Shown here one piece after another: positions 10,459 to 56,300 of a stretch of DNA of 64,000 bases. The DNA lies in assembly GCA_964016885.1 (NCBI GenBank), contig OZ024743.1, forward strand, positions 184,708,403-184,772,402, read 5' to 3'. Source of the DNA: Eledone cirrhosa (lineage: Eukaryota; Mollusca; Cephalopoda; Octopoda; Eledonidae). The notes beneath the pieces are model-generated. The model saw only the letters and a program-made list of their open reading frames with translations, did no database searches and had not been told where the DNA came from. Both the position numbers and the translations under genes were made by a program. Each line of letters starts with the position of its first letter. Positions within the stretch are counted from its first letter, which is position 1.

Positions 10459-13400
10459 CATAGACTGGAGAGAAATGAAGCAACCATGCTCCATTGGATG
10501 TACAATGTAAATGAGAGAGAAATACAGAGCTTGGATGAGTTGAAGGAGAAGCTGGGTTTAAGAGAAATCCAAGGTGGTGTGCAGGAGAGAAGACGCATTG
10601 GTATGGACATGTGATGCACATAGACAATGATTGTTGGGTGAAGGAGTGCCAGTGGAAAGGAGCTGTGGCAGAGGTAGACCAAGAAAGACCTTGGCAGAGG
10701 TTGTGAGAGCTAACCTCAAATCACTGAGACTCACAGAGGTGATGACAATGGATTGCGACATATGGAGAGATGCCGGGCTGAGAAGGACCCGGCCAACCCA
10801 TGCAAATGTGGAAAAGCGGAGGTAAAAACTATGATGATGATATATGCATGTTTAGATACAAAATGCTTTGCAGAATTTGTTCTATCACTCTGGTTGCTGT
10901 TAAGAAGAGCATCCAGCTGTAGAAAACATGCCAAACAAGGGACTGTAAAGAATCTTCAGTTGTGCCGTGAACATGACAACCTCTATAGTGATTTGCCACA
11001 ATAAGATGCATCCAGTACACTCTGTAATGTGGCTGGTGTTAACAAATGCATCATGCTGAACAAAGAGAGGACTTTTCAGTTATGTCAAGGGTATGATAAC
11101 TTCTTTAGGATTGGTACGACGATAAAATACACCCAGTAAACTCTGTAAAATGGTTGGTTTTAGAAGAGCATCCAGCTGTAGAAACCATTCCCAAACTGGA
11201 AATGCATGTAGTTGTAATGTGGCCCGTGGCCCATCTTGGAGGACAATAGATCCAATTAAATACTGACTTGGTCTATGATGATCCATCGAACACATACCAG
11301 AATGGAAAAATGGATATTAAATGATAATGATGACTGTACTCTGAATTCAAATCCCGCTGTGGGGTGTACCTCATCTACCCAATAATGCACGACACCCCTA
11401 CGCCACACCCATTAATAAGAACGAGTATGTCAATAACTTACAATACTCCTGGAGGTCCAATTAAATCAAATCTGGAAGAAAAAGAAAGAGAATAAATCAA
11501 TCAAATGCTTATTTTCATGTAATGTGAGGTTTCATAGATGAAACAGTAAGGCCATATTTCAGAACATTGGACTTCACTAATAATATAGCACATCATCATC
11601 ATCAACGTTTAACGTCCGTGTTCCACGCTTGCATGGGTTTGGACGGGGGTTTTCCCACTTGAGGCAAGAGTGATTATCTTGCTCGCATATATCTGGCGAG
11701 TTTTCTACAGCTGGATGCCCTTCCTAACACCAACCACATTTACAGTCTGGGGCTGGGAGGTTTTTACCGTGTTGCCTACACGGCCACATTACAGCGTGGA
11801 CTGTCTGGCGGGTTTTCTACGGCTGGATGCCCTTCCTAACACCAACCACATTTACAGTCTGGGGCTGGGAGGTTTTTACCATGTTGCCTACACGGCCACA
11901 TTACAGCGTGGACTGTGTGTTTTTTTGTCGTGACACCTACACGATCTCATTTGTTTCGGCCTGGATGTTGTGGCACCAACATAACTTTACATTGAAAGGG
12001 GCGGTGTGGATGTATTTTGTTAGAGATGCCTACTGACTGTAGTAGGTTTTACTTTGTATTTAGGTAAGGCGGGTCTTCTCTATTACTGAGTCCCGCCAAA
12101 GGTCTCGGTCCAGTGACATTGTCTTGGAGAGGTGTAAGTGTGTGAGGTCGGAATTTATCAGCTCGTCCCAGGTTTTTCTGGGTCTGCCTATTCCGTGGCT
12201 ACCATCTATCTATATTGCCCTGCACTTTGTTATACAGCTGTCGTCTTTCATGCGCATCACGTGACCATACCAACGTAGCCTTCTCTCGAGTAAACAACAT
12301 CTGATCCCTCTTATTTCTAATTTTTTCCTTAGTTCGTTTATGCTTTGCCGTTCACGTATATTACTATTACACATCCAGCGGAGCATGCAAGCTTCATTCC
12401 TCTCTAGTCTGCGTATATCCTCTGCACACAATGCCCAGGTCTCACTGCCATGCAACATTGCTGTTCGTATGCAGGCATCATACAACCTGCCTTTCAATAT
12501 TGAGAAAAATGACTACAGGCAAATTCTCTGCCAGTATGAAAAAAAATGGACAATAAAACATCAAACATTGTACTGTTACAGATGTTTCCACTGTTTTGGT
12601 TGAGAGGACTCTTCAGTTATGCAAAGGATATGACAGACCTCACTGTTGCTGGTATCCTGATAAAGTGCACCCAGTACACTCTGTAAAGTAGTTGGTGTTA
12701 GGAAGGGCATTCAGCTGTAAAAACTATGCCAAAACCAGAATGTATGTAAGTGAGATGTCACCACTTGGCCGTCTAGGAAGATAGTAGCTCTAATTGAATA
12801 CTGAATTAGTCTGATGACCTATCCAATCCATGCAAGGGTGAAAAAAAAACATGTGGAATAATGATGAAGATCATGAAATACAAAATATTTTTATAAACTT
12901 GATTCCACAAGAAAGGAAGTGGAAGATAAATTCTTTCAAAAACCATAGGCAGTGTTTATCAGTAGAAATATAGTAAGGAAAGGGTTAAGAAAAGAGAAAA
13001 GTCAACAAACCTTGGTCTTGGAAGCTGCCCAAAATTCTGTGGATTGTTCATTGGATCAAATGTCATTCCACTACCCTGTCCAAGTGGATCAAGATCCCTA
13101 GCTCCATAACTATAGGGATCAACTCGATTCCTAACAACAAAAGGTAGGTAAATAGAAAAGAAATATAAGTCATAATGGTATTGATGAGGCAGAAAACAAT
13201 GAATCAATATTTTTACCATCATGTATGTATCCTAATTGCCTTCAATAACCTGGTTGCTTTGTGCATTTCAGTTGCCCAGTGTATACCAGTTGCCTTATGT
13301 ATCCCAATTACCTTGTGTACAGGGTAAATGCAAGAATCATTAAACTCAGACTAGTCCTGAATAAGACAATTACCACAATAATATCAGCTTACGCACCCCA

Positions 13401-16400
13401 ATCGGGGCTGCCAGACGAACTTAAGGATAGGTTTTACGAGTCCCTAATACACACTACTGCTCTAACAGACGACAAGGACTTCCTAATCATTGCAGGAGAT
13501 TTTAACGGACATGTAGGTAAACACTGCGACGGCTTCAATAGAGTACATGGAGGCCATGGAGTTGGCACAAGGAATGAGGAAGGATTCAGACTTCTAGAAT
13601 TCTGCGACGCCAATGACATGTCGATATGTAACACAAACTTTAAAAAACCCGACAACCACCTGATCACCTATAGATCAGGGGAGCACTCTAGTCAGTTAGA
13701 TTTTATCCTCATCAGAGGACGTGACAGATGGACGGTCGTAAACACAAAAGCCTTCCCTAGTGAGGAATGTACATCCCAACATAGCTTAGTTGTCAGCGAC
13801 CTCACGGTCAGAACTAGACGAGCCCTGAAACAGAGGCCAACCTGGAGAAGAAAGATCTGGAAGCTGAAAGTCCCCTCAACCAGTAACAGATTTAAAGATA
13901 TTTTACTCAACGCCTACGACAGTAAAGAAGAACAGATAGAGACATTTAACGTAGAAGAGAACTGGGAGTTCCTAAAAAATAACTTACTAGAGGCGACGGA
14001 TGAGGTTTGTGGCTGGAGTAAGACCTCAAGCAGGAGGAGAGTGACTTGGTGGTGGAACAATAAGGTAGATGAAGCAGTCAAGGCCAAGAGACAGGCATGG
14101 AAAGAATGGAAGAACGGGGGGAGCAGGGTACATTACATAGAGACCAAGAGGACCAGAAACAGGAGGTATTCAAGATTGCGAGGCAGTGTGTCAGAGATAG
14201 TTGTGATGTCATTGGAGAGAAGTGTATCCGGAATGATAAAGGTGAGCTTGCCCTCACAAGTGCTGAGAAGAAAGATGCATGGAAGAGTCATTATGATAGA
14301 TTACTAAATGAGGAGAATGCATGGGAAGAAGAGACCCTACCCCACGTAGACCCTATAGAGGGACCAGCAGTACAAGTCAGCGGCAGCGTAGTAAGTAAGG
14401 CAATCAGAGATATGAAGATAGGGAAGGCAACCGGTCCATCGGGTATAGCTGCCGAGATGTTGAAGGCATCTGGGTCTGTAGGTCACACTATAACCACACG
14501 TATCGTTAACCAGGTAATACTAGAGGGGGCCATACCAAAAGATTGGTGCAGTAGCATCATTGTCAACTGCTACAAAGGTAAAGGCGATGCACTAGATAGA
14601 GGAAACTATAGAGGTATAAAGTTGATGGACCAGGTCATGAAAGTAACAGAAAGAGTTATAGCACAGCTGATTAGGGACCGGGTGAATATAGACGAGATGC
14701 AATTTGGGTTTGTACCAGGGAAAGGCACCACTGATGCGCTCTTCCTTGTGAGGCAATTACAGGAAAAGTACCTAGCTAAAAGTAAGCCACTCTACTTGGC
14801 ATTTGTCGACCTTGAGAAAGCCTTTGACAGAGTTCCACGTGCAGTAATCTGGTGGGCTCTTAGAAAACTAGGAGTAGATGAATGGCTTGTGAAAGCGGTA
14901 CAAGCCATGTATAGGGGAGCAGTCAGCAAAGTTAGGATTGGCAATGAGTATAGCGAGGAATTTAGCGTACAGGTTGGGGTCCACCAGGGCTCTGTTCTTA
15001 GCCCTCTCCTGTTCATCATAGTCCTGCAGGCAATAACGGAGGAGTTTAAGACCGGATGCCCATGGGAACTCCTGTATGCTGATGACCTCGCACTCATAGC
15101 TGAATCTATGGTAGAACTAGAGAATAAATTCCAAACCTGGAAGCAGGGACTAGAGAGAAAGGGCCTCAAAGTCAACATGACAAAGACTAAGGTCCTTATA
15201 AGTAGACGAGAAAACAGAACCCAGATCCCCTCAGGGAAATGGCCTTGCTCAGTATGTAGGAAAGGTGTAGGTAGGAACTCCATTCTTTGCCCCAAATGCA
15301 AACAATGGGTACACAAGAGATGTAGCGGGATCTCAGGAAGCTTAATTAAGAATGTAGGATTCACATGCAGCAGCTGTGCTGAAACAGCAAGCAAACAGCC
15401 ACAGGAAACAAGTACCACCAATCTCTGGGAGGGCCCTGTAGAAACAGTAGACAGCTTCTGTTACCTAGGTGACCGAATTAGCAGCGGAGGTGGGTGCTCA
15501 GAAAGTACAATAACTAGGGTAAGAACGGGATGGAAGAAGTTTAGGGAACTACTACCACTGCTAGCTGCAAAAGGCTTCTCCCTCAGAATGAAAGGCAGAC
15601 TGTATGATGCGTGTATCCGAACAGCGATGTTGCATGGTAGTGAGACCTGGGCGCTGAAGGTGGAAGACTTACGTAGATTAGAGAGAAACGAAGCCTGCAT
15701 GCTCCGATGGATGTGTAACAGTAATATACGTGAACGACAAAGCATAAATGAATTGAGAGAGCGACTGAGCATAAGAGGAATCAAATGCTGCGTGCAGGAG
15801 AGGCGGTTACGCTGGTATGGACATGTGATGCGTATGAAGGATGACAGCTGCATAAAAAGGTGCAGAGCACTAGAAGTTTATGGAAACCGCGGAGTGGGGA
15901 GACCCAAGATGACTTGGGATGAGGTGATAAAAGCCGACCTTACCCAACTACACCTCTCAAAGTCAATGACACATGACCGTGACTTCTGGCGTCACGCAGT
16001 AATACAGGGTACCCGACCTCCCATGGGTACATGCTGAAGCATATAAACAATATGTATTGTATCCCTGCATGTCATAGGTAACTAAAATGGTTGGCATCTG
16101 GAAGTATATCCAACTGTTAAAGCATTGCTTCAAAACGTCCCATCCAACTCATGCTATTATAGAAAAGTAGAGGTAAAAAATGCTGATGATAATCCTCATC
16201 ATCATCACCAGTATTTTGTTAACCTGCTGTACTCTACTGTACTAAACTCAAATTTCTATCTGAGAATAAACACCTTTCTCCAGAAAGAGAAGTGTTTGTT
16301 CAGCAACAATGATGCCAAAAAATATACCTGTCTTTGCGAAAAAGACTTTTTTTTAGCTCACACCTATGTAGGATTAACTGGCCTCCAACGAAGTTGCATC

Positions 16401-31907: not shown

Positions 31908-33402
31908 ATCATCATCGTTTAACGTCCATGTTCCACGCTAGCATGGGTTTGGACGGGAATTTCCCCACTTGAGGCAAGATTAGTTGTCTTGCTCGTATAG
32001 GACTGTCTGGCGGGTTTTCTACGGCTGGATGCCCTTCCTAACACCAACCACATTTACAGTGTGGACTGGGAGGTTTTTACCGTGTTACCGACACGGCCAC
32101 ATTACAGCGTGGACTGTGTTTTTTCGTCGTGACATCTACACGACCTCATTTATTTAGGATTGGATGTTGTGGTACCAACATAACTTTACATCGAAAGGGG
32201 TGGTGTGGATAAGGTGGGGGTAGTGGGATGGGGGTGTATTTTGTTAGAGGTGCCTACTGACTGTAGGTTTCGCTTTGTACTTAGGCAAGGCGGGTCTTCT
32301 GTATAACTGTGTAGCGCCAAAGATCTCGGTCCAGTGACATTGTCTTGGAGAGGTGTAAGTGTGTGAGGTCGGAATTTATCAAGTCGCCCCAGGTTTTTCT
32401 GGGTCTGCCTACTCCGTGGCTACTGTCTATTTTTATTGCCCTGCACTTTTTTATACAGCTGTCGTCTTTCATGCAAATCATGTGACCATACCAACGTAGT
32501 CTTCTCTCGAGTAAACAACATCTGATCCCTCTTATTCCTAATTTCTCCCTTAGTTCGTTTATGCTTTGCCGTTCACGTATATTACTATTGCACATCCAAT
32601 GGAGCATGCAAGCTTCGTTCCTCTCCAGTCTGCGTATATCCTCTGCACACAATGCCCAAGTCTCACTGCTATGTAACATTGCTGTTCGTATGCAGGCATC
32701 ATACAGCCTGCCTTTCATTTTTAGAGAGAACCCTTTAGCGACCAATAGTGGTATAAGCTCTCTGAACTTTTTCCACCCTGTTCTGACTCTAGCTACTGTA
32801 CTTTCAGAGCACCCTCCACCACTGCTGATTTTGTCACCCAGGTAATGGAAGCTCTCCACTATTTCTATAGAACCATCTGTGCAATGGAATGAGCTAGTAT
32901 TCTGTGGGCACTTGCTGCTACTTATTGCACCAGAGCACCGGCCACATATAAAATCTATATTCTTAGTTAGCTTACCTGTGATCCCACTACATCCTTTATG
33001 CACCCATATTTGCATTTGGGACATAAAATGGAGTTTCTGCCTACTCCTTTCCTACACACTGAGCACGGCCATTTCCCAGATGGGACCAGTGCCCTATTTT
33101 CCTTCCTACAAACTAGAACTTTAGTCTTAGACAGGTTAATTTTTAGGCCTTTTGATTCTAGGCCATGCTTCTATGTTTGGAATTTCTACTCTAGCTCGGC
33201 CATTGATTCAGCTACGAGCGTTAGATCATCTGCATATAGGAGTTCCCATGGGCAGCCGGTCTTGAACTCCTCTGTTATAGCCTGAAGGGCAATAATAAAT
33301 AGTAGGGGGCTAAGAACGGAGCCCTGATGAACACCAACTTTTACGCTAAACTCTTCACTATATTCGTTGTTAATTCTAACCTTGCTGACTGTTTCTTTAT
33401 AC
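31908..33402 (-). pseudogene. PHD-RTE LINE copy P5 (subfamily I), 5'-truncated
   Basis: Right to left: RT from MYKETVSKVRINNEYSEEF through VGVHQGSVLSPLLF and ELLYADDLTLVAES; the PHD finger region is frameshifted; then a 247-codon frame with WVHKGCSGITGKLTKN, CGRCSG, GSIEIVESFHYLGD, SSETWAL, GRPRKTW; then the 3' UTR and AAACGATGATGATATAG. It is nearly identical to P7. The 5' end stops in a short (TA)n at 33402, where the 1.85 kb inverted repeat begins. Confidence 0.88.
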
Positions 33403-33404
33403 AT

Positions 33405-33627
33405 ATATATATATATAGTAAGTGAACAACACAAAATATAACTACTCCATTACCAAAGGTTTCTGGATCCCAGACAATATTTTGTGTTGTTCACTTTCTA
33501 ATTAAAAAGCTCTGTTCTATACATAGAACACTTTTTTCCTTTGCTTTTCCTTCGGAATTACCTAACATGTATATATATATAGTAATAATAAATGTGAAGA
33601 CTAAAATCTGAAGAGGGCTCAATAAAG

Positions 33628-33665
<38 letters not shown>

Positions 33666-33772
33666 TGTAGAGCAAAACGCCAGCACCAACAGTTTTGCAA
33701 GAGATGTCAACATGAATGGACCTGTTATTTTTATCTAAAGACATTTTTTCCAATTCCAACCCGCCCGTCCCC

Positions 33773-33813
<41 letters not shown>

Positions 33814-34852
33814 ATATATATACGTGTGTGTGTGTGTGTGTGTGCTCCCGGATTGTACTTCTCCCTCCTACCTTCCTACTTCCTCAATTCACCTTTTCCT
33901 AGTAAGTAGAAGGGAAAACAGAGCCCTGATCCCCTCAGGGAATGGCCTTGCTCAGTGTGTAGGAAATTTGTAGGTAGAAATTCCTTCCTCTATGCCAAAT
34001 ACAAACTATGAGCACACAAGAGAGTGCTTCAGCCTGTGTTCATGGGAAGGCGAGTATTCTGTATTACTGCATAACACCAGAGATCTTGGTCCTGTGAGAG
34101 GTGCACATGTGCAAGGTCTAACTACATCACCTCATCCTAAGTCTTCCTACTCCATAGCTTCCATCAACTTTGAGCACTCTGCACCTTTTTATACAGCTGT
34201 CATCCTTCATACTCATCACATGTCCAAACCAAGGCAATCTCCTCTCCTGCACACTGAATCTGATTCCTCTTATGCCTAGTTTCTCTCTCAGTTCGTTTCT
34301 GCTTTGCCATTCACGTATATTACTATTACACATCCATCGGAGCAAGCAAGCTTCATTTCTTTTCAATCTCTGCAAGTCCTCTGCACACAGTGTCCAGGTC
34401 TTACTACCATTAAACATTGTTGCTCGTATACATGCATTATACAATCTGCCTGAACTTCTCACTCTGGCTATTGTACTTTCAGAACACCCACCTCTGCTGC
34501 TAATTTGGTCACCCAGGCAGCAGAAGCTATCTATTGCTTTTACCAAACTTTCCCATAATTTGATAGTACTTGTTTCCTGTGGTCATTTGCTGCTTACTGC
34601 TCTGATGCAACAACTATATGTAAAACCTACGTTCTTAGCTAAACTACCTGAGATCCCACTCTCTTGTGTGCTCATAGTTTACATTTGGCATAGAGGAAGG
34701 AATTTCTACCTACAAATTTCCTACACACTGAGCAAGGCCATTCCTTGAGGGGGATCAGGGCTCTGTTTTCCCTTCTACTTACTAGGAAAAGGTGAATTGA
34801 GGAAGTAGGAAGGTAGGAGGGAGAAGTACAATCCGGGAACACACACACACAC

Positions 34853-35278: not shown

Positions 35279-37769
35279 ATCATCGTTTAACGTCCATTTT
35301 CCACGCTAGCATGAGTCTGGATGGGAATTATCCACTTGAGGCAAGATTGGTTGTCTTGCAGGTTTTCTATGGATGCCCTTCCTAACACCAACCACGTTTA
35401 CAGTGTGGACTGGGAGGTTTTTACCGTGTTGCCTACAGGGCCACATTACAGCGTGGACTGTGTGTTTTTTTTTCGTGACACCTACCCGACCTCATTTATT
35501 TCAGACTGGATGTTGTGGTACCAACATAATTTCACATTTTAGGGGATGGTGTAGATGGGTGGGGGTAGTGGGACGGGGGTGTATTTTGTTAGAGGTGCCT
35601 ACTGACTGTAGGTTTCGCTTTGTACTTAGGCAAGGCGGGTCTTCTGTATTACTGAGTACCGCCAAAGATCTCGGTCCAGTGACATTGTCTTGGAGAGGTG
35701 TGTGTGAGGTCGGAATTTATCAAGTCGTCCCAGGTTTTTCTGGGTCTGCCTACTCCGTGGCTACCGTCTATTTTTATCGCCCTGCACTTTTTTATACAGC
35801 TGTTGTCTTTCATGCGCATCACGTGACCGTACCAACGTAGTCTTCTCTCGAGTAAACAACTGATCCCTCTTATTCCTAATTTCTCCCTTAGTTCGTTTAT
35901 GCTTTGCCGTTCACGTATATTACTATTACACATCCAGCGGAGCATGCAAGCTTCGTTTCTCTCCAGTCTGCATATATCCTCTGCACACAATGCCCAGGTC
36001 TCACTGCCATGCAACATTGCTGTTCGTATGCAGGCATCATACAGCCTGCCTTTCATTTTTAGAGAGAACCCTTTAGCGGCCAATAGTGGTATAAGCTCTC
36101 TGAACTTTTTCCATCCCGTTCTGACTCTAGCTACTGTACTTTCAGAGCACCCTCCCCCACTGCTGATTTTGTCACCCAGGTAATGGAAGCTCTCCACTAT
36201 TTCTATAGAACCATCTGTGCAATGGAATGAGCTAGTATTCTGTGGGCACTTGCTGCTACTTATTGCACCAGAGCACCGGCCACATATAAAGTCTATATTC
36301 TTAGTTAGCTTACCTGTGATCCCACTACATCTTTTATGCACCCATATTTGCATTTGGGACATAAAATGGAGTTTCTGCCTACTCCTTTCCTACACACTGA
36401 GCATGGCAATTTCCCAGATGGGACCGGTGCCCTATTTTCCTTCCTACAAACTAGAACTTTAGTCTTAGACAAGTTAACTTTAAGGCCTTTTGATTCTAGG
36501 CCATGCTTCCATGTTTGGAATTTCTTCTCTAGTTCCGCCATTGATTCAGCTACGAGCGTTAGATCATCTGCATATAGGAGTTCCCATGGGCAGCCGGTCT
36601 TGAACTCCTCTGTTATAGCCTGAAGGGCAATAATAAATAGTAGGGGGCTAAGGACGGAGCCCTGATGAACACCAACTTTTACGCTAAACTCTTCACTATA
36701 TTCCTTGTTAATTCTAACCTTGCTGACTGTTTCTTTATACATGGCTTGTATAGCTCTCACAAGCCATTCATCAACACCTAGTTTTCTAAGGTTCTAAGGG
36801 CCCACCAGATAATCGAGCAGAGTACTCTGTCAAAGGCTTTCTCCAAGTCAACAAAGGCTAAGGGGTTTACTTTTAACTAGGTACTGCTCCTGTAGTTGTC
36901 GTACAATGAAGAGAGCGTCTGTTGTACTTTTACCTGACAAACCTGAATTGCATTTCGTCTAGATCAATTCGCTCTCTGATTAGTTGCGCTATTACTTTTT
37001 CTGTGACCTTCATGACCTGGTCAATTAATTTAATGCTTCTATAGTTTCCCCTATCTAGGGCATCACCTTTACCCTTGTAGCAGTTAATGATAATGCTGCT
37101 GCGCCAGTCCTTCGGAACGACCCCATTCTGTATGACTTGGTTTACTATCCGAGTGACCATAGTGTGTCCCACCGTTCCAGATGCTTTCAGCATTTCAGCA
37201 ACTATTTCCAAAGGCCCGGCCGCCTTGCTCCTTCATGTCTTTGATCGCCTTACTTATTATACTACCTTCAACTTGCACTGCTGGTCCCTCTATTGGGTCG
37301 ATGTGGGGGAGACTGTCTTTCTCCCAATTATTCTCCTCATTTAGTAGCCTTTCGTAGTGACACTTCCAAGCTTCCTTCTTATCAGCGTCAGTGATTGCAA
37401 GTACACCATCATCATTAAGGACACACTTTTCCCCGTGACACATTGCCTACGTTTTTGGTCCTCGCGTTGTAGAACATGCTTGAACTTTCTTTCCTCTGCT
37501 TCCCTTCTTGCGAAGTACACTTGTCTCCTAGCTTCCCTCCTGGCCACTTGATAGTCTTCTCTACTTCCCCCATCCCACCATACTTTCCAAGCCTGCTTTT
37601 TGGCCTTAATTGACTCCTCCACCACCACGTTACTCTCCTCCTGCCTATAGGCCTGCTCCAGCCACAGACTTCATCTGCTGCCTTCAGCAGGTTAGCTTTC
37701 AGGAATTCCCACTGTTCCTCTATATTGTACGACTCTAATTGCTCTTCCTTACTGTCGAAAGCATCAAGT

Positions 37770-39117: not shown

Positions 39118-42100
39118 CTGCAAGTAAAGAGTAAAATGAAAAGATTTTGTATACATGTCATAAATATTAAAACATTTTCTTGTCTGGTTGTAACATCCCA
39201 CAGGCATCTCATAATTAAGCTGGTGTTTGGAATATAACTTAACAAAGGCTCTTACATAAAATTATAATGGAAGGTTTTTAGATAAATATAAAAACACTTT
39301 AAAACAAATTGCTTTGTACCATAGAATCAAGGGTAGGTTCAGATGGCTTGGTATCAAAAACGGTTAACCCTTTCATTACCATATTTTTTTAACACTTTGA
39401 AAATACACAAGAATTTGGAGGAATTTAAAATTATAAAACTGGTGTTTGAAACATAACTTAAAGGTTCTTACATACGATTAAGATGGAAAGTTTTTAGATA
39501 AACATAAACACGTTAAAATAAAGAGCTTAATATTGTTGAATCAGAGACAGTTTGAGGTTTGAGGTTTGGTATCAAAAGGGTTAATAAACAGAACAAAATA
39601 ATTTTATATATTTCTATCACAATCAGTAAACATTTCCATTTCTAATAAACTGGACATTAAAAAAAATTGTGACAGAAAAATGTTAGATAATGAATAGTCA
39701 TGACTGAAGGTACAAGCACCCTAACACCCACATTCCTAGCAAATACTATCTGTTAAATTGTTAGATATAAAGCTATGAATAAAAGGGCTATCACAAAATG
39801 AATGGCAAAAATGACATTTCTAATAGTTTTCATACATCTGAAATAAAAAGAGCAATATATATAGAGTGCATAATTTTCAAAACATGGGACACTGAGATGA
39901 CATGATAGTTGTGTCTTTCTCATGAGTAATAGCAGAATGAGGAAAAAAAATTAATAAGGAACTGCTACAATCATGAATCAAAAACTGATTATCTCTTATG
40001 TTCAAATGGTTAGTTTTGGATCATGCACAACAAAACTCCACACATATAATGGAGCAGAAATGGCACAATGTGGTATTCACGCCTTTGCCAAGGGTATTAA
40101 TAGTATAAGTAATGTGAAATTAGTTCAATCAGGAGTCAATATCAAGCCATGGACTTGGTTTACTACACCATGGGGTTTGTCAAATAAGAACAGCAATAAC
40201 CAGAACAGACTTAGAATATTCAAGGAAGGGTGGAGAGAATTTCAATTTGAAACAGAGTGTTGGTATGGGTGTGGTGATAACAAAGTTCACTTTGGAATCA
40301 CATGTTTTGGGGTTTATAAATAAAGTACTTCAGCAGGATTTGAACATAGAACCCAGAGAGTCAGAACAAATACCTCAAAGCATTCTTTCTGATGACTGCC
40401 AATTCACTGCCTAATAACTCTGCCAATTTATCACCTAATGTCTTTGCCAATTCACATAAGGAGAAAATATCTCTACTGCCCCCACCTGCTATTTTGGAGT
40501 TGGGATTTCAAAATACTAGGACTAATAACAGTGAAAGGGAAAGAAGCAGAGAAGGTGCAATAACACATCTAACATAAACCAAGCATGGATTATGGTTATT
40601 TTAAAATGTTATGGAGGGATTTTTTTCTACATATTTTACTCACACTTGCTGAAATCTCTTCTGACGAATTCACCTCAGTGGCATCCTGAAGATGGAACCA
40701 CAAGGGGAATTTAAGACAATCTAGTAGTCACCCTGAGTTTCCAGATACCATTAAAAAATGGAAGCAGGAAACTCAGAGAAGTGATGGAAATGAAAGACAG
40801 CTTCAAATAAATAATACATGTATTGAGTACTTTTTTCTCTTGTCATTCAATCCCATATATATATTATACACACACACACACATACATATATATATATACA
40901 CATATATATATATTATATATATATATACACATATATATATATTATATATATATACGCACACATATATATATATATATAGATATTAGATATATATACATTA
41001 TATATACACACACACACACACACATATATATATATTAGATATATATACATTATATATATATATACACACATATATATTATATATATATACACACACACGC
41101 ATATTATATATATATACACACATATATATTATATATATATACACACACACACATATACATACACACACACACATATATACACACATACACACATATATAT
41201 ATATATATATATAATTTTATTCTAAGTTAAGATTCTATTGGTTTTTTTCCCTGGATTACACAAAATTTGTGGATAAAGTTTCTGTCTCGACTTTTTTTGA
41301 ATTGAGATTGAATTATTTTTTCCCATATCTTACGTTAAATATTTACCATCTTGATGTAATAGTCACTTATATGTATGAATTACTGTTGGCTTCTTGCTCA
41401 GATTAATTTCTCTATTTTCATTTATATATATTATATATATATGCACACACAGACATATATATATATATATCATCATCATCATCATCATCATCAGGTTTAG
41501 CGTCCGTGTTCCACGCTTGCATGGGTTTGGACGGGGGTTTTCCCACTTGAGGCAAGAGTGGTTGTCTTGCTCGCATAGGACTGTCTGGCGGGTTTTCTAC
41601 AGTTGGATGCCCTTCCTAACACCAACCACATTTACAGTGTGGGGCTGGGAGGTTTTTACCGTGTTGCCTACACGGCCACATTACAGCGTGGACTGTCTGG
41701 CGGGTTTTCTACAGCTGGATGCCCTTCCTAACACCAACCACATTTACAGTGTGGGGCTGGGAGGTTTTTACCGTGTTGCCTACACGGCCACATTTACAGC
41801 GTGGACTGTGTGTTTTTTGTCGTGACACCTACACAATCTCATTTGTTTCGGCCTGGATGTTGTGGGACCAACATAACTTTACATTGAAAGGGGCGGTGTG
41901 GGTGGGGTGGAGGTGGTGGGACGGGGGTGTGTTTTGATAGAGATGCCTACTGACTGTAGTAGGTTTTTACTTTGTATTTAGGTAAGGCGGGTCTTCTGTA
42001 TTACTGAGTACCGCCAAAGGTCTCGGTCCAGTGACATTGTCTTGGAGAGGTGTAAGTGTGTGAGGTCGGAATTTATCAGCTCGTCCCATGTTTTTCTGGG

Positions 42101-43592
42101 TCTGCCTACTCCGTGGCTACCGTCTATCTTTATTGCCCTGCACTTTGTTATACAGCTGTCGTCTTTCATGCGCATCACGTGACCGTACCAACATAGCCTT
42201 CTCTCGAGTAAACAACATCTGATCCCTCTTATTTCTAATTTTTTCCTTAGTTCGTTTATGCTTTGCCGTTCACGTATATTACTATTGCACATCCAGCGGA
42301 GCATGCAAGCTTCGTTCCTCTCTAGTCTGCGTATATCCTCTGCACACAATGCCCAGGTCTCACTGCCATGCAGCATTGCTGTTCGTATGCAGGCATCGTA
42401 TAACCTGCCTTTCATTTTTAGGGAGAACCCTCTAGCGGCTAATAGTGGTATAAGCTCTCTGAACTTTTTCCATCCAGTTCTGACTCTAGCTACTGTACTT
42501 TCAGAGCACCCTCCCCCACTGCTGATTTTGTCACCCAGATAACGGAAGCTGTCCACTATTTCTATAGAACCCTCTGCGCAGTTGAAGGAGCTAGTATTTC
42601 GTGGGCACTTGCTGCTACTTATTGCACCAGAGCACCGGCCACATGTAAAATCTATGTTCTTAGTTAGCTTACCTGTGATCCCACTACATCTTTTATGCAC
42701 CCATACTTTGCATTTGGGACATAAAATGGAGTTTCTACCTACGCCTTTCCTACACACTGAGCATGGCCATTTCCCAGATGGGACCGCCGCCTTATTTTCT
42801 TTCCTACAAACTAGAACTTTAGTCTTAGCCAGGTTAATTTTAAGGCCTTTTGATTCTAGGCCGTGCTTCCATGTTTGGAATTTCTTCTCTAGTTCCGCCA
42901 TTGATTCAGCTACGAGCGTTAGATCATCTGCATATAGGAGTTCCCATGGGCAGCCGGTCTTGAACTCCTCTGTTATAGCCTGAAGGGCAATAATAAATAG
43001 TAGGGGGCTAAGAACAGAGCCCTGATGGACACCAACTTTTATGCTAAACTCTTCACTATATTCGTTGTTAATTCTAACCTTACTGACTGTTTCTTTATAC
43101 ATGGCTTGTATAGCTCTCACAAGCCATTCGTCAACACCTAGTTTTCTAAGAGACCACCAGATAATGGAACGGGGGACTCTGTCGAAGGCTTTCTCCAAGT
43201 CGACGAAAGCTAAGTATAGGGGTTTACTTTTAGCTAGGTACTTCTCCTGTAGTTGTCGTACAATGAAAAGAGCGTCTGTGGTACTTTTGCCTGACACAAA
43301 CCCGAACTGCATTTCATCTAGATCAATTCTCTCTCTGATTAGTTGCGCTATTACTTTTTCCGTGACCTTCATGACCTGGTCGATTAATTTAATGCCTCTA
43401 TAGTTACTCCTATCTAGGGCATCTCCATTTCCCTTATAGCAGTTAACGATGATGCTGCTACGCCATTCCTTCGGAACAACCCCATTCTGTACGACTTGGT
43501 TAACTATCCGGGTGACCATGGTGTGTCCCACCGAACCAGATGCCTTCAGCATCTCAGCAACTATTTCCGAAGGCCCAGCCGCCTTACCCGTC

Positions 43593-43631
<39 letters not shown>

Positions 43632-46600
43632 AATTAGTATATCTACCAACATATATATACAGATGCATACCTATGCTAGCAAATATATAGGTTTTGTCTT
43701 AGTAACTTTGTGGTTCAATGCAAGGGGATGCAGAACAATTATATGAATGAGGTAAAATAAGAAAATTATAAAAATTAACTTACTAAAATTTCACTCCAAC
43801 TAATTAGTTTCTGAAAGGGAATAAACATGGTTTACAAATGATTAACTCGATGTCACGTGATTGATTCTTTTGAATTTGCCACCGACCAAGTAGGCAGTGA
43901 TTTTTTCAATGTCTTGGAATTTAGTCCACGCTTGCTTTTTTCCATCCACTGAATTATTTTTGTATAAGTTCCCTGTGTCCACGCACCGCCAGGTATCTTA
44001 GCTGAGAACAGACTTCCTGATGACGAAATGGCTTCTACATGCTTTCCATTTGGAAACCATGTTTATTCCCTTTCAGAAACTAATTAGTTGGAGTGAAATT
44101 TTAGTAAGTAAGTTAATTTTTATAATTTTCTTATTTTACGTCATTCATATAATTGTTCTGCATCCCCTTACATTGAACCACAAAATTACTAAGACAAAAC
44201 CTATATATTTGCTAGCATAGGTATGCATCTGTGTATATATGTTGGTAGATATACTAATTCTTTATAATTATCTCCAAATTATTTTGTTGAGCAAAACTTT
44301 TCTAAAACTGCTACTATAGTTCATAGTAATGGCTTGGCTACTGTCTTTTTAACACCCACTCCTCACTGATTAACCTCGATGTCACGTGATTGATTCTTTT
44401 GGATTTGCCACCGACCAAGTAGGCAGTGATTTTTTCAATGTCTTGGAATTTAGTCCATGCTTTAGTTGGAGTGAAATTTTAGTAAGTTAATTTTTATAAT
44501 TTTCTTTTTTTACGTCATTCATATCATCATCATCATCATCATTTTACGTCCGCTTTTCCCTGCTTGCAAGGGTGGGACGGGTCTTATTCAGCACAGCATC
44601 TCTCCACTCGTCACGGTCCCTCATCATCTCCACCGTGAGCTTCAATGATCTGAGGTCTGTTCTCACCACCTCCGCCCATGTTTTTCGTGGTCTACCTCTA
44701 CCACGTCTTCCTTCAACTGGCATTTCCTGGCACTTCTTCACCCATCGGTCATCCTCCATGCGCATCACATATCCATACCACCTCAGTCTCCTCTCCCGTA
44801 CACTACATTCTATCCCTCTCAGACACAGTTTCTCTCTCAACACATTTATGCTGGGTCGTTCACGCACATTTACACTGCACATCCAACGGAGCATGCTTGC
44901 CTCATTTCTCTCCAGCCGTCGCATATCCTCTGCGGTTGCTGCCCATGTCTCACTACCATGCAGCATCGCGCTCCTCACACAGGCATCATACAACCGGCCT
45001 TTCGTATGCAGGGAGAAACCCTTCTTCGTCAACAGAGGAAGCAGCGCCCTAAACTTCTTCCAACCCATCCTTATTCTAGATACTATGGCCTCGGAACACC
45101 CTCCTCCCATGCTAATCTGATCTCCCAGGTACCGGAAGCTATCCACCACTTCTATAGCGCCCTCTCGCATTTGAAAAATGTGTCTATCAGTGCGACTTCT
45201 ACTGTCTAATTTCCCTGTACATCTACTGCATACATATTTCTCCCTACCTGTTAGTTTGCCTGCTATCCCGCTACATCTCTTGTGTACCCATGATCTGCAT
45301 TGTGTGCATTTTATAGAATTTATGCCAGTTCCTTTTCTGCAAATCGAACATGGCCATTTCTCTGACGGAATCAGGGTTTTGTCCTCTTTTCTACTCATCA
45401 ACACTTTTGTCTTAGCTAGATTTACTCTCAGTCCTCTTGCTTCCAACTGCTGTTTCCATAGCTGGAATTTATTCTCTAGCTCCTCTACTGATTCTGCTAT
45501 AAGAGCCAGATCATCAGCATAGAGAAGTTCCCATGGACAGCCAGTCTTAAACTCCTCTGTTATGGCTTGGAGGACTATAATGAACAAGAGCGGGCTGAGG
45601 ACTGAACCTTGATGTACTCCTACTTGTATCTGGAATTCCTCACTAAACTCCATTCCTACCCTGACTTTACTGAGAGTACCTCTGTACAAAGTTTGCACTG
45701 TCCTCACAAGCCATTCCTCAACACCTAGCTTCCTTAGGGACCACCAGATGACAGATCGGGGTACCCTATCAAAGGCCTTCTCTAGGTCAACAAAGGCTAA
45801 GTATAGTGGCTTATTCTTCTCTAAGAACCTCTCTTGCATTTGTCTCACCAAGAAGAGGGCATCTGTTGTACTCTTCCCAGGCACAAAACCAAACTGCATC
45901 TCATCTAGTTTGACCCTTTCTCTAATTAGTTGTGCTAAAATCCTTTCTGCCACTTTCATAACCTGATCTATCAGTTTTATACCCCTATAATTGCTCCTCT
46001 CCAAAGCATCCCCTTTACCTTTGTAGCAATTTATGAGAATACTGCTGCACCAGTCTTTGGGTATGACACCACCATATATAGCCTGATTGATGATGCGTGC
46101 AACCAGTTTAGTGCCTACGTCCCCTGATGCCTTCAGCATCTCAGCAACTATTCCCGATGGTCCGGCCGCCTTACCATTTTTCATTTCCCTAATCGCCTCT
46201 TGGACCCTATATTCGTCAATCTCAATAGCTGGTCCCTCTGTCGGATCTACCAAGGGTAATTTCTCTCTCTCCCATTCGTTCTCCACATTCATCAGTCTCT
46301 CATAATGACATTTCCAGGCCTCCTTTTTCTGGTCATTCGTGACACTAAGTACACCGGCATCATCCCGGACACATTTATCACCAACAACATCCTGATTTGC
46401 ATTGACACACTGCCTTGCAATGTGGAACACCGCACGCCTCTGATCTTCCCGTCGCAAACCTCCTACTCTCTGCCTCCCTGCGTGCTAAGTACACCTGACG
46501 TCTAGCTTCTCTCTTAGTGGCTGTATATTCTTCCCTACTCCCACCCTTTTTCCAAGCCTTCCATGCTAGTCTTTTGTCTCTAATAGCCTTATCTACTGTG

Positions 46601-50339: not shown

Positions 50340-53300
50340 CATATCCATATCATCATCATCATCATCATTTAACATCCATCTTCTACGCTAGCATGGGTTG
50401 GACAAGTTTGTCCCACTTGAGACAAGATTGGTCGGGTGACCATGTCTCGCTCGTACAGAACTGTTTCTGGCAGGTTTACTATGGCTGGATGCCCTTCCTA
50501 ACACCAACCGCATTATATAAGAAGAAAAACGCAAATAAACAGACAGGAGTTGACCAGTGGATAAATGCTAAGGAGGAAAAGACTAGAACTAAGAAAAACA
50601 AAGACCTTGCAAAAAAAGAAAGCCCAAGTACTCTGTAAGTTCTTCAAAAAAGAGACCTGTTGTCATGGGGAGGTTGGGACAAACTGTGGTTTTGCACACC
50701 CCAGACTATGCAAGTTGAGCCCAACCTGCTCATGCAAACTACCCAAGACAAAACCAACCAACTCGGTCTGTGACATGCTAATAGTACACATGAAGCAACT
50801 CAAAATGGTAAAATGTGTCACATATCGACCACCAGGTGTCCCCAGACATGAGGACAAGTTTGAAGATAGCCTCAGAAGGATTGAAGAAGTGCTGATCAAT
50901 TGGGATCAGAGTCCCAACATCCCACTGTTGAGAGATTTCAACCTCCCCAAGGTCAAATGGGACGAAGACCAGCCCCTCTCAGGAATGACGGCACCTGAAC
51001 AAAGGCAGACAGAATCGTTGTTGGACCTTATAAACAGACTCTTCATAGAACAAATTGTACTCCACCCAACAAGAGGTGAGATTATCCTGGATCTCTACTT
51101 CACAAATAACATGGTGCTCATCCACGATGTGAAAGTGACATCAACAATTTTCTCGGATCATAACTTAGGAGAACTAGGAATGTATAGTCCAAGCAAGACT
51201 GTAGATATACAACCGACAGGAAACACTCAATCTCTGTCCAGCTTAAACTTCCACAAAGTTAACTGGAAAAGGATTCAGGAGGAGCGACAGTCTCTCTATG
51301 GAAGATGTCAACAGATAACTTGAACAATTCACGGAAATAATACAAGCCATAAGCTCCAAGTTTGCCTTGGAAAGAAAGGTCAATAGGCACAAGAATATTA
51401 TTCCCAGAGACAGGACAATTCTTATGAGAAGAAGAACAAAAATCTCAAACTGGCTACATACACAAGTAAGGAACAAGATGGAGTCCCATCTGAAGCAGGC
51501 ACTATTATAAACTGTCTTAAGCAATCAACAGAGGAAGTTGCACTTGCCACCCTACCTAAAAAGAAAAGCCGAAGCCAAATGAAACCTAGTACCTCAGAGA
51601 AGGTAGTTGAGGCAAGAGCCCATCTTAGGTCAATATCCCAATCTCACCATCAATCACCATCTCAAGGGAAAAAGATACAGCTTATCATGGCCAAAAAATC
51701 ACTAGACGACGCTTATCTTAATGCTGAAGCCAACTATATCTCAGGTAGGATTGATCAGCTATCACAACATCACATCAGCAAACACCATCATCTTGCTTGG
51801 AAGGTTGTCAAAGATCTTTCAGGCAAAAACTCAAACTCTGCAGTTAGAATCAAAGGAGGCTCTGCCAAAAAACGTCTTGAAAATTGGTCTACTCATTTTA
51901 AAAACCTTCTAGGGAAAACGGCCAGACTCCCTGATAACTATCAACTGCCATCCGTTCAGGTCTCAGAGCCTTTAGGAATCAACACCTCTCCTTTCACTAT
52001 GCCTGAGCTCAAAGAAACCATCAAACAGATCAAAGCCTCAAAAGCCTTTGGGCCGGATAATATACCTACCCTGATTTGGAAGAATGAGCATTTCCACATC
52101 CTTTTGCTCAACTTATGTAACCATACTTTCGAGACCAATAAACCACCTAGCGTCTGACATGCAGCTCAAATTATCCCCATGCCCAAAAATGGAGATCTTT
52201 CTTTAGCCACCAACTATAGAGGAATTTCTCTCATGGCAATTGCTGCAAAAATATACAAGCTTCTTCTTAACCGCTTAATCCCATTTCTTGAGCCAATCCT
52301 TCGTAACAACCAGAATGGATTTAGGAGAGGTAGATCAACACTTAGCCAGATTCTCTGCCTTCGCTGACTTATAGAGGAGTCCCAAAACCGTAATCTAGAC
52401 CTTGCACTCATCTTTGTTGATTTTTCAAAAGCCTTCGACTCAGTTGACAGGTCGGGGATGTTTGAAATTCTACAACTCTATGGGATTCCTGATAAAATCA
52501 TCGCGGCCATACGTGTAATGTATACAGATACCAAATCAACTGTCCTGACCCCAGATGGGGAAACACCACCTTTCTCAATCCTCGCTGGAATTTTACAGGG
52601 CGATACCCTTGCTCCATATCTATTTATTATTGTTGTGGATTATGTTTTGCGCATGTCTGTGGATAGGATTCAGGATAGGGGATACCAACTACAGCCTAGG
52701 AGAAGCTCACGCTACCCAACAAAATACTTGACCGACACCGACTTTGCTGACGACACCGCATTGATCAGTCGGACACTGGAAAATGCTGAGAGTCTTTTGA
52801 AGTCATTAGAGCAAGCGTCCAACTGTGTTGAACTGTACCTCAATCCAAGACTGAGTATGTGAACAGATGCGCAAACAGCCCAAACTACCCCATCAGAACC
52901 CTTAATGGTACCACCCTTAAGCAGGTGGAAGATTACAAGTATCTTAGCTCATATATCTCCTCCTCCAAAAAAGATTTTCTAACCAGGAAGGGTATGGCAT
53001 GGTCAGCGTGCAATGACATGCACGCCATATGGACATCTCAACTTACCAACAAGCTAAAACTGGAAATATTCCAAGCAACCATTAAGCCCATATTACTTTA
53101 TGGATCCGAAACTTGGACACTAACATCACAACTTGAGAGGAGATTGGATGGCACATATACCCGCCTCTTAATGAGAGTGCAAAACCTATCCTGGAAACGA
53201 CATCCCACCTTGTCTAAAATCTATGGCAAACTCCCTCGACCCTCTGCCCTTTTAAAATCCCAGAGAGCTCAATTTGCTGGCCACTGTCACCGTGCCAGCA

Positions 53301-56300
53301 ATGAAATCATATCCGCTCTCTTGCTCTGGAACCCTGACTCCAGCCTGACTAGGAGTAGGAAGCTGTCATTTCCTGACGTTATCTCTAGGGATACGGGAAT
53401 CAGTAGACAGGACCTGGGGGCAGCGATAGGGGACAGGGAATTCTGGGGCATGAAAGTGAGATCCATCATCTCGACAGTAGTCGACGAATGATGATGATGA
53501 TGATTATAAACTGAAAATGAGCTCAAACTCTCCCATGAAAAGGGCTATAGAAAACAAAGATAAACCCTAAGGCCTTCTTCAAATTTGAAAAAGAGACCGC
53601 CTTGGCACACAACGGGATAGGGCCACTTTTCCATAAAAGTGGCTCTCTGACCGCAAACCCCCAAGAGATAAGTGAGGCACTGAATGAACAATACAAAAGT
53701 GTTTTCACCCCTCCAATGAGTCACATGCAAATAAATAAGCCAGATGAGTTCTTCAACACAACTGCATTACACAGAGAAATGGCAACCATCAACCAGATAA
53801 TTTAAAAATGAAAGATGTGATATCAGCCAGAGACGAAATGAGACCAAATTTGGAGCTGGCCCTGATAGTTTCCCAAAGTGAACATTAGCAAAACCACTGC
53901 AGATCCTCTTCCAAAAATCCCTTGCAAGTGGTAAACTACCCGAAAAACCAAAAAGCATATGTCCTATCTATAAAGGAAGAAGAAGAGCAGATGCTAAAAA
54001 CTACAGACCTGTCTCCCTGACCTCACATATCAGAAAAGTCATGGAATGAATCATCAGAAGGAAACTATCACTTTTCTAGAGGAAAATAATCTAACACTCA
54101 GCATAGCTTTCGCCCAGGTAGAACTTGTCTTATGCAGCTCTTACAGCATTATGGCTGGATACAACAGTTTCTAGACCATTCAAACATAGATGTGATATAT
54201 CTCGACTTTGCAAAGGCCTTCGACAAGGTTTATCATGGAATGATATGTCACAAACTACATAGCTTTGGCATAGCTGGAAAACTAGGTGAATTGCTTCATG
54301 ACTTCTTAAAAGATAAAAGCCATACTGTTGCAGCCAATGGGGCCCTTTCAAAGGAAACGTCAATAACAAGCAGCGTGCCCCAGGGAACTGTTTTGGGGCC
54401 ACTACTGTTTGTGGTGGCTCTCTCAGACGCCCTCTGTAATACAGCCAGCTTCCCTCACAAGCTCTGCTGATGACATGAAAGTAACACAGGCAATCAAGAA
54501 ACCGGCTGATGCTACTCTCTTACAACATGATTTAGATACCATATATGGATGGGCTGAAAACAATATGCAATTTAATACAGGTAAGTTTCAAGCCCTCCAC
54601 TATCAACCCACAATCATAGGACCACCACAACAAAGGTACACTGGACCAGGAGGAATCAAAATCCCGGAGTCAAAATCAATATGGGACCTGGGTATTGACA
54701 TGAGCAATGATGCAACATTTCATGCACACACCACCAAAACGATGGCAATGTGCAGATGACTGGCGGATTGGATTCTGGGGACATTCAGGATAAGAGACTC
54801 GGAAACCATGTTGGCCTTCTGGAGAACTTTTGTCCTCAGTTAACTGGACTATTGCTCTCAGCTGTGATCGTCTCACAGTATCAAACTAATTGTAGAACTT
54901 GAAGCAATCCAATGAAAATACACCAAGATGATTGCCTCAATCAAAGAAATGAACTACAGGGAGAGGCTGAAGAAATTAAAGCTTTACTCCCTGGAGCAGA
55001 GATGGGAGAAATACGCAGTGATATACATATGGAAGATCCTGGAAGGGTTATAACCAAACTTCAGGATATTACTGTGTAATGCCAAAGGTCCTATCTGTCG
55101 CATTGAGAATAGGGACACACTGCAATAGCCTGGGGTTCAAGAGACCCCAGCTTCTTAGTATGCTGCCAAAACGATCAGAGATTTACAAGGTGTGCATGTA
55201 GATGTTTTCAAAAGACATCTCGACATTCTACTGATCAAGGTCCCAGATTAACCCACAAATAAGAGGTGAAGCACAAATAAGAGCAGCAGCAACAAACTCC
55301 CTTTTGCATTAATGGACAACCAGGGAAGGCTGGCTATAGAAAGTGTAGCATCAGTGGTGGTGCCCCAGCATGGCCTCAGCCCCCCGGTTGGAACACAAAT
55401 AAATAAATAAATATATATAATATTGGTTAGACTGGGAGAAGGAAAACTCAGTATATGGGTAGAGTGATGTATATACCAATGAGTGAAGGGCCAGAAATTT
55501 GGGGCTTAAATTTTGAAGAGTACACAAAACTGGATTTGAGACACTTGTATAACTTCACACCTATAATATATATTATAGTATATCAAATTGTTTAATGATT
55601 ATATAATATAGCAGATAAAAAAATGAGGAGCTTATGTCTTCTGATCAAAGAATGCAATGCCTGTTATAGAATATATAAATTCAATATGTAAAAGTTAGAA
55701 TTTTAATTTAAAATGGACAAGGAGAGACAGTCAGGCAGACATATGAACACCAAAATAATTTGGAGGGATTTAGTAATATAACTAACTTTCTAATTATGAA
55801 ATTGGCATTTGGAGCATAACTTAAAGGTTCTTACATAAAATTATGATAGGTTTTAGATAAATATATACATTTTAAAAGAAACAATTTTCTATCACTCGAC
55901 CAGAAACATTTTTAGGTTTGGTATCATGAAAAGGCAAAAGATGATAATTCCATGCTAGCGTGGAAAGTGGACGTTAAACGAGGATGATGATGATGATGAT
56001 GAAAAGAAACAAGAACAATATAAAAAAAACATGCATTGACCCTTATTTTTGACCATATTCTTTTGAAATATACTGTTAAAGTGTTTAAATTTATTTTGAA
56101 AATAATAAAAAATGCAAAGGAATTTAGTGATGTCTAGAATATTACTTATAATATTCTTACATAAATCATGATTAAAGGCTTTCGGTGTTCATCATAAATA
56201 AATATTTCAATGTGCTGAAATTAATGTAAATCTAATTCTGCTCAAAACACTTGGCTTTGAAAGAAGTTGGAACATTCATGCACTATTAAATCAGTACCTT

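Follow-up and report, generated by a model that had tools for sequence, protein, structure and literature searches.

The 64,000-nucleotide stretch of Eledone cirrhosa DNA analysed here (the window; contig OZ024743.1, positions 184,708,403 to 184,772,402) holds copies of a long interspersed nuclear element (LINE) of RTE-like type, whose reverse transcriptase (RT) protein contains a C4HC3 zinc finger. In the open reading frame (ORF) at 14073-16034 (+) of the copy P3, the finger CSVCRKGVGRNSILCPKCKQWVHKRCSGISGSLIKNVGFTCSSC occupies residues 392-435 (bases 15246-15377). Its first ligand is placed 57 residues past the start of the YADD motif, and the whole finger lies between the motifs K-T-K and F-C-Y-L-G. 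The ligands are spaced C-x2-C-x10-C-x2-C-x4-H-x2-C-x14-C-x2-C; the intervals of 11 and about 15 residues given in a preliminary description of this DNA have to be corrected to 10 and 14. An identical set of eight ligands is present in the ORFs at 41981-43633 (-) and 44547-46484 (-), and C4HC3 order and spacing were found in all three window ORFs that hold a whole finger. The remaining copies in the window are broken or truncated fragments.

Profile searches and structure prediction identified the finger as a PHD finger, as the preliminary description had proposed. For the Pfam model PF00628 (PHD), which has a curated cut-off of 24 bits, the three ORFs gave scores of 26.4, 26.1 and 26.0 bits. 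The finger segment taken by itself reached 33.3 bits (E 4.8e-8), and a full-length copy of 1040 residues, where the finger lies at 778-821, gave 27.2 bits. Since the score of the window finger exceeds the cut-off, the C4HC3 match is far beyond chance. The predicted fold is the PHD cross-brace according to an AlphaFold2 (AF2) model compared by Foldseek and VIA-align. Profile comparison with solved chains also gave PHD, and the Pygopus PHD finger was the best match both by profile and by structure. We are therefore virtually certain that a PHD finger is inserted within the RT protein of this LINE. The sub-threshold matches of the zinc-ribbon and C1 Pfam models might point to a plain zinc ribbon or to cysteines arrayed by chance. 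This reading was rejected as hardly conceivable in view of the PF00628 scores in all three ORFs, the predicted fold and the high proportion of listed relatives (178 of 182) in which the finger is canonical.

The site of insertion was defined by comparison with BovB, an RTE-clade LINE. BLASTP of the window ORF against the ruminant BovB protein P0184 aligned residues 107-377 and 456-643 and skipped exactly 378-455; BovB has 12 residues where the window ORF has 78. A search with a BovB query yielded proteins assigned to Bos, Ovis and Capra, many without a name and two under bacterial names, and the C4HC3 pattern occurred in none of the 120 listed matches. Between K-[T/S]-[K/E] and F-x-[Y/F/H]-L-G, the loop has a median length of 22 residues in the BovB matches (measurable in 41 of the 120 listed), compared with 89 residues in the listed relatives of the window ORF (measurable in 178 of 182). 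In the AF2 model of the full-length copy (1040 residues, mean pLDDT confidence score 84), which has human LINE-1 ORF2p and R2 as its nearest solved chains, the finger (Pfam limits 778-821; block pLDDT 75-88) is preceded by a strand at 753-763 and followed by strands at 834-837 and 840-845. The gap in the BovB alignment and the predicted strands on both sides of the finger indicate that it forms a module at the tip of a polymerase hairpin, which runs from the K-T-K strand to the F-x-Y-L-G strand. We take F-x-Y-L-G to be the primer-grip region (RT motif E/7), and the finger-bearing hairpin would presumably sit between RT motifs D/6 and E/7.

To examine how widespread the insert is, 7992 candidates of an ORF search were scored, of which 2247 were relatives. 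All 120 of the best-scoring relatives listed carry the C4HC3 finger. So that proteins with a finger would not be preferred, a second search was performed with a query that lacked it. The best 120 of 2759 relatives obtained in this way comprised 116 with a canonical finger and four with a changed one; finger-free close kin were thus not among them, all 120 still holding the insert. When both listings were pooled, the finger was canonical in 178 of 182 relatives, all of them best-scoring matches, and its distance from YADD was again some 57 residues. Two of the four deviating proteins (P0135, P0162) have two extra residues between the histidine and the sixth ligand, P0136 has lost the fourth ligand, and P0173 is a decayed database copy with YAND for YADD, a broken finger and no W-V-H part. 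These four gave PF00628 scores below the cut-off or no match, and many of the listed relatives bear no precomputed PHD label. The named hosts among the listed matches are a catfish (Neoarius), lancelets (Branchiostoma), Hydractinia and a metagenome-assembled genome of a lucinid-clam symbiont, the last of which is probably a match to host DNA. A search of viral and prokaryote genome contigs confirmed no relatives. Judged from these sequences, the finger is no peculiarity of the Eledone cirrhosa genome, as several animal phyla are represented among the named relatives, and a PHD finger appears to have become fixed in the single protein of an RTE-like LINE lineage of animals.

For a characterization of conservation, the 120 listed relatives from the whole-ORF search were aligned with the three window ORFs (n = 123). 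The eight ligands are invariant in 123/123. Also kept are W two residues before the histidine (121/123), N four residues before the third ligand (121/123) and F or Y two residues before the seventh (123/123), and F, W or Y stands two residues before the first ligand in 104/123. Mean entropy was 1.47 for the finger, 2.59 and 2.85 for the flanking linkers, 1.01 for the RT and 1.70 for the C-terminal domain. Synonymous divergence (dS) was saturated in 9 of 15 comparisons between window copies. In the only pair measurable in the finger, with unsaturated dS, the ratio of nonsynonymous to synonymous divergence (dN/dS) was 0.08 for the finger, 0.04 each for the RT and the C-terminal domain and 0.29 for the linker that follows. 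Silent codon differences were present at six of the eight ligand positions among the three window copies. By these measures the finger is under purifying selection, and the argument for selection put forward in the preliminary description is upheld by the ligands and by the dN/dS of this one pair.

Table 1. Positions of the finger-bearing LINE copies and their features in the window.
Feature	Position	Strand	Basis
5'-truncated copy P3, RTE-like LINE	13315..16034	+	tblastn with P0001; Pfam Exo_endo_phos_2, RVT_1
P3 split over two frames: endonuclease part; RT-PHD-C-terminal part	13315-14151; 14109-16034	+	
Reverse transcriptase domain RVT_1, residues 172-376	14586..15200	+	Pfam, 111.9 bits
YADD motif	15075-15086	+	Frame translation
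PHD finger, ligands 1-8, residues 392-435	15246..15377	+	Pfam PF00628, pattern, AF2, structure comparison
F-C-Y-L-G motif, residues 462-466	15456..15470	+	F, L and G invariant in 123/123 aligned proteins
C-terminal domain, residues 456-654	15438..16034	+	Residues 456-643 align with BovB P0184 residues 351-539
PHD finger, second copy (ORF 41981-43633)	42632..42763	-	Pfam PF00628, pattern
PHD finger, third copy, other subfamily (ORF 44547-46484)	45219..45350	-	Pfam PF00628, pattern
Copy with one-base deletion within finger	32284..33404	-	
Copy with same one-base deletion within finger	35650..36940	-	

Many copies of the window ORF, about 99% identical to it, are present in the 2.98-Gb genome of Eledone cirrhosa, and some such loci elsewhere in the genome contain a single open frame. 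In the genome copy search, 68 of 204,354 first-look candidates were scored. The loci fetched for two subfamilies were the best matches by score, two of the 50 being the window's own copies, and this choice makes the sample lean towards intact copies. The finger of the first subfamily was identical in 30 of 30 loci (L009-L038, with L009 the window's own), 10 of which have an open frame of 1040 codons. The subfamily of the third copy (44547-46484) showed its own finger unchanged in 20 of 20 loci (L049 being the window's own). Loss of ligands in most young copies, which the preliminary description had named as an argument against its proposal, was thus not seen in these 50 best-scoring loci.

The 1040-codon frame encodes Exo_endo_phos, RVT_1 and PHD in one protein, a single-protein organization in keeping with the RTE clade. 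In pairwise comparisons the scores were 133 bits with BovB, 99 bits with another LINE of the window and 86 bits with a CR1-like LINE. Another LINE of the window (50565-53491, +) is without a finger; it has an APE-like endonuclease and an RT in which FADD is present and Y-K-Y-L is preceded by a short loop. A young CR1-like LINE of this genome (L001, L003-L006 with L069 and L070) has an ORF2 of about 945 codons and an ORF1 that begins with a Cys-rich stretch; this stretch is cross-brace-like but gave no Pfam PHD match, and it was not called a PHD finger.

A short simple-repeat 3' tail is a further character of the RTE clade. The sequence (GAT)3-9 forms the 3' end of 29 of the 30 fetched loci of the first subfamily, the window's own copy being without this 3' end. 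From shortly past the stop codon onwards, the 3' untranslated region (UTR) of P3 (16038-16200, +) differs from its counterpart in the young copies. The 3' UTR of the young copies (L010-L038) resembles the tails of cephalopod short interspersed nuclear elements (SINEs), for which the LINE could presumably serve as partner. One locus (L018) starts directly after the (GAT)n tail of another copy (upstream piece L039), head to tail, and some 5' boundaries of copies are ambiguous. An AT repeat begins the 3' flank, within 20 bases of the element, in 15 of 29 loci; the corresponding frequency is 11% of positions farther out in these loci and 4% in the window.

As to what the finger may bind, the conserved tryptophan and the aromatic residue near the first ligand would fit a methyl-lysine cage. 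According to a study of Pygo1 (PMC2726290), its K4me2 pocket has walls W366, Y341 and D352 and a base of V350 and A356; the mutant W366E showed no detectable binding, and V350E and A356E retained less than 3% of it. The counterparts of four of these residues are kept among the 123 proteins: W366 as W in 121, Y341 as F, W, Y or H in 114, V350 as V in 109 and A356 as S or A in 122. At the position of D352 an acid was found in 1/123, and at that of Pygo E360 in 6/123. PHF13 requires E248 besides its cage, as stated in the accessible text of PMC4915813, and the corresponding position is acidic in 4/123. Any acid at nine tested positions around the third ligand occurred in only 18/123. The net charge of the finger has a median of +7 over 48 residues and is at least +4 in 116/123, compared with +1.1 and +3.4 per 48 residues in the RT and the C-terminal domain; the window finger has nine basic and no acidic residues. 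Typical H3-reading PHD fingers have negatively charged A1 and R2 pockets (PMC10124903, in the portion available). By sequence, the cage tryptophan of an H3K4me reader is therefore present (121/123) and the negative A1 and R2 pockets are absent. Such a charge pattern speaks against histone targeting in its simplest form. The suggestion in the preliminary description that the finger could steer integration to certain chromatin may still apply, but it found no support in the form stated, given the strong basic charge and the general scarcity of acids around the third ligand.

We favour a role in docking on target DNA or nucleosomes, to which we assign a probability of roughly 40%. Docking was placed first because of the basic charge and because acids are rare where typical H3 readers have them. 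The endonuclease would pick the nick by sequence, and the finger would act as a docking module that keeps the ribonucleoprotein on its target. Its basic face would contact nucleosomal or target DNA, and a methyl-lysine in the retained aromatic pocket would possibly help.

Several observations weigh against docking, or against any strict need for an intact finger. Basic charge alone cannot tell target DNA from template RNA, and the bias towards AT repeats at the 3' junctions (15 of 29) is explicable by the endonuclease alone. When the ligands are left out, the finger has an entropy of 1.77 and is no better conserved than the C-terminal domain (1.70). The AF2 model came without an interdomain error estimate, and the placement of the finger relative to the rest of the protein is predicted only. 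The solved chains most similar to the finger are for the most part H3K4me2/3 readers, several of them presumed. Finally, the two copies with the one-base deletion inside the finger are 93% identical and have this deletion in common. Their direct similarity stops at the 3' end of the element, as is the case with separate insertions; if they arose in this way, an RNA with a broken finger would still have been copied, perhaps in trans. Beside one of them (33398-34026), part of the other's 3' flank (35270-34657) recurs in inverted orientation, and a local rearrangement is thus possible besides separate insertion.

A doubtful second choice is a true H3K4me2/3 reader, which would bring the element to active chromatin. 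The low frequency of acids at the D352, E360 and E248 places (1, 6 and 4 of 123) speaks against it, as does the strongly basic nature of the finger when set against the highly negative pockets of typical readers (PMC10124903, available portion). In our alignment, MLL1 PHD3 has no acid next to the third ligand either, which weakens the argument from acids. Because MLL1 PHD3 is, as we assume, an H3K4me reader, H3 binding by the LINE finger may still occur, and we lowered the weight of a Pygo E360-type acid as a necessity for H3 binding.

Less likely again is a part in polymerization unrelated to chromatin, in which the finger would hold template RNA or primer near F-x-Y-L-G. The position of the hairpin beside the F-x-Y-L-G strand, the basic surface and the occurrence of the finger in nearly all relatives examined (178/182 listed) would suit such a role. 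However, BovB with its 12-residue loop indicates that an RT of this kind can do without a finger, and the kept cage tryptophan would have no evident use in RNA binding. We give still less weight to a structural spacer or a site of contact with a host protein, with neither a nucleic acid nor a histone as ligand of the finger. PHD fingers do bind proteins too, as Pygo binds BCL9 (PMC2726290, available parts), but a spacer would need neither conserved residues of cage type nor a strongly basic surface.

A broader and more tentative proposal is that, through a reader built into the polymerase, this LINE lineage might couple target-primed reverse transcription to the state of chromatin, with methyl-lysine and nucleosomal DNA as the possible ligand, unlike typical acidic PHD fingers. 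How LINEs choose their insertion sites is a long-standing open question. With a compact and separable finger at a fixed site of the polymerase, and with many young copies, chromatin reading by a LINE becomes testable.

In searches of open-access papers (Repbase notes being outside their scope), nothing listed pointed to a PHD finger within the reverse transcriptase of an RTE element, in agreement with the preliminary description, which knew of no standard RTE element with such an insert. The term 'PHD' does not occur in the main text of PMC10294476, PMC7846101, PMC1291365, PMC12031113, PMC11203168, PMC5055719 or PMC8967140; its single occurrence in the main text of PMC3849965 belongs to a grant number, and the single one in PMC9115989 denotes an academic degree. 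Since RVT_1 and PHD appear together in the precomputed Pfam annotation of public proteins, the combination is open to view and seems just to be undiscussed.

Among known systems, the window LINE has most of its organization in common with RTE-clade LINEs such as BovB and Perere-3/SR3, which have one ORF with an APE-type endonuclease, an RT and a C-terminal domain, and a 3' tail of short repeats. BovB is 32% identical over the RT and differs by its 12-residue loop in place of the finger. For Perere-3/SR3 and their curated kin, only L1-EN, RT and DUF6451 are described in the available part of PMC13155389. RTE-2_OV of Octopus vulgaris is likewise a cephalopod single-ORF LINE of the RTE class with a reported zinc finger; it has 1109 residues and the finger is reported as C2H2, not PHD, in the accessible text of PMC9115989, and as the comparison is by description only, this finger may be the same one or mis-annotated. 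The Pygopus PHD finger has the tryptophan and the aromatic pocket walls in common with the window finger, whereas the aligned stretch of Pygo1 contains two basic and eight acidic residues as against nine and none. CR1 and L2 LINEs are known to encode PHD fingers in ORF1, for which the Pygo chains 2vpb and 3zpv are top in seven of nine PHD rows, a resemblance to Pygo also found here (PMC4120745). In those elements the finger belongs to ORF1, to the N-terminal end of a single ORF or, probably, to the start of ORF2 (same source), whereas in the window LINE it lies inside the polymerase, after the palm. Its place after YADD and before F-x-Y-L-G is thus not the ORF1 or pre-endonuclease position of the CR1/L2 finger. 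LINE proteins therefore carry PHD fingers at two places, the known one in ORF1 and the one in the polymerase described here.
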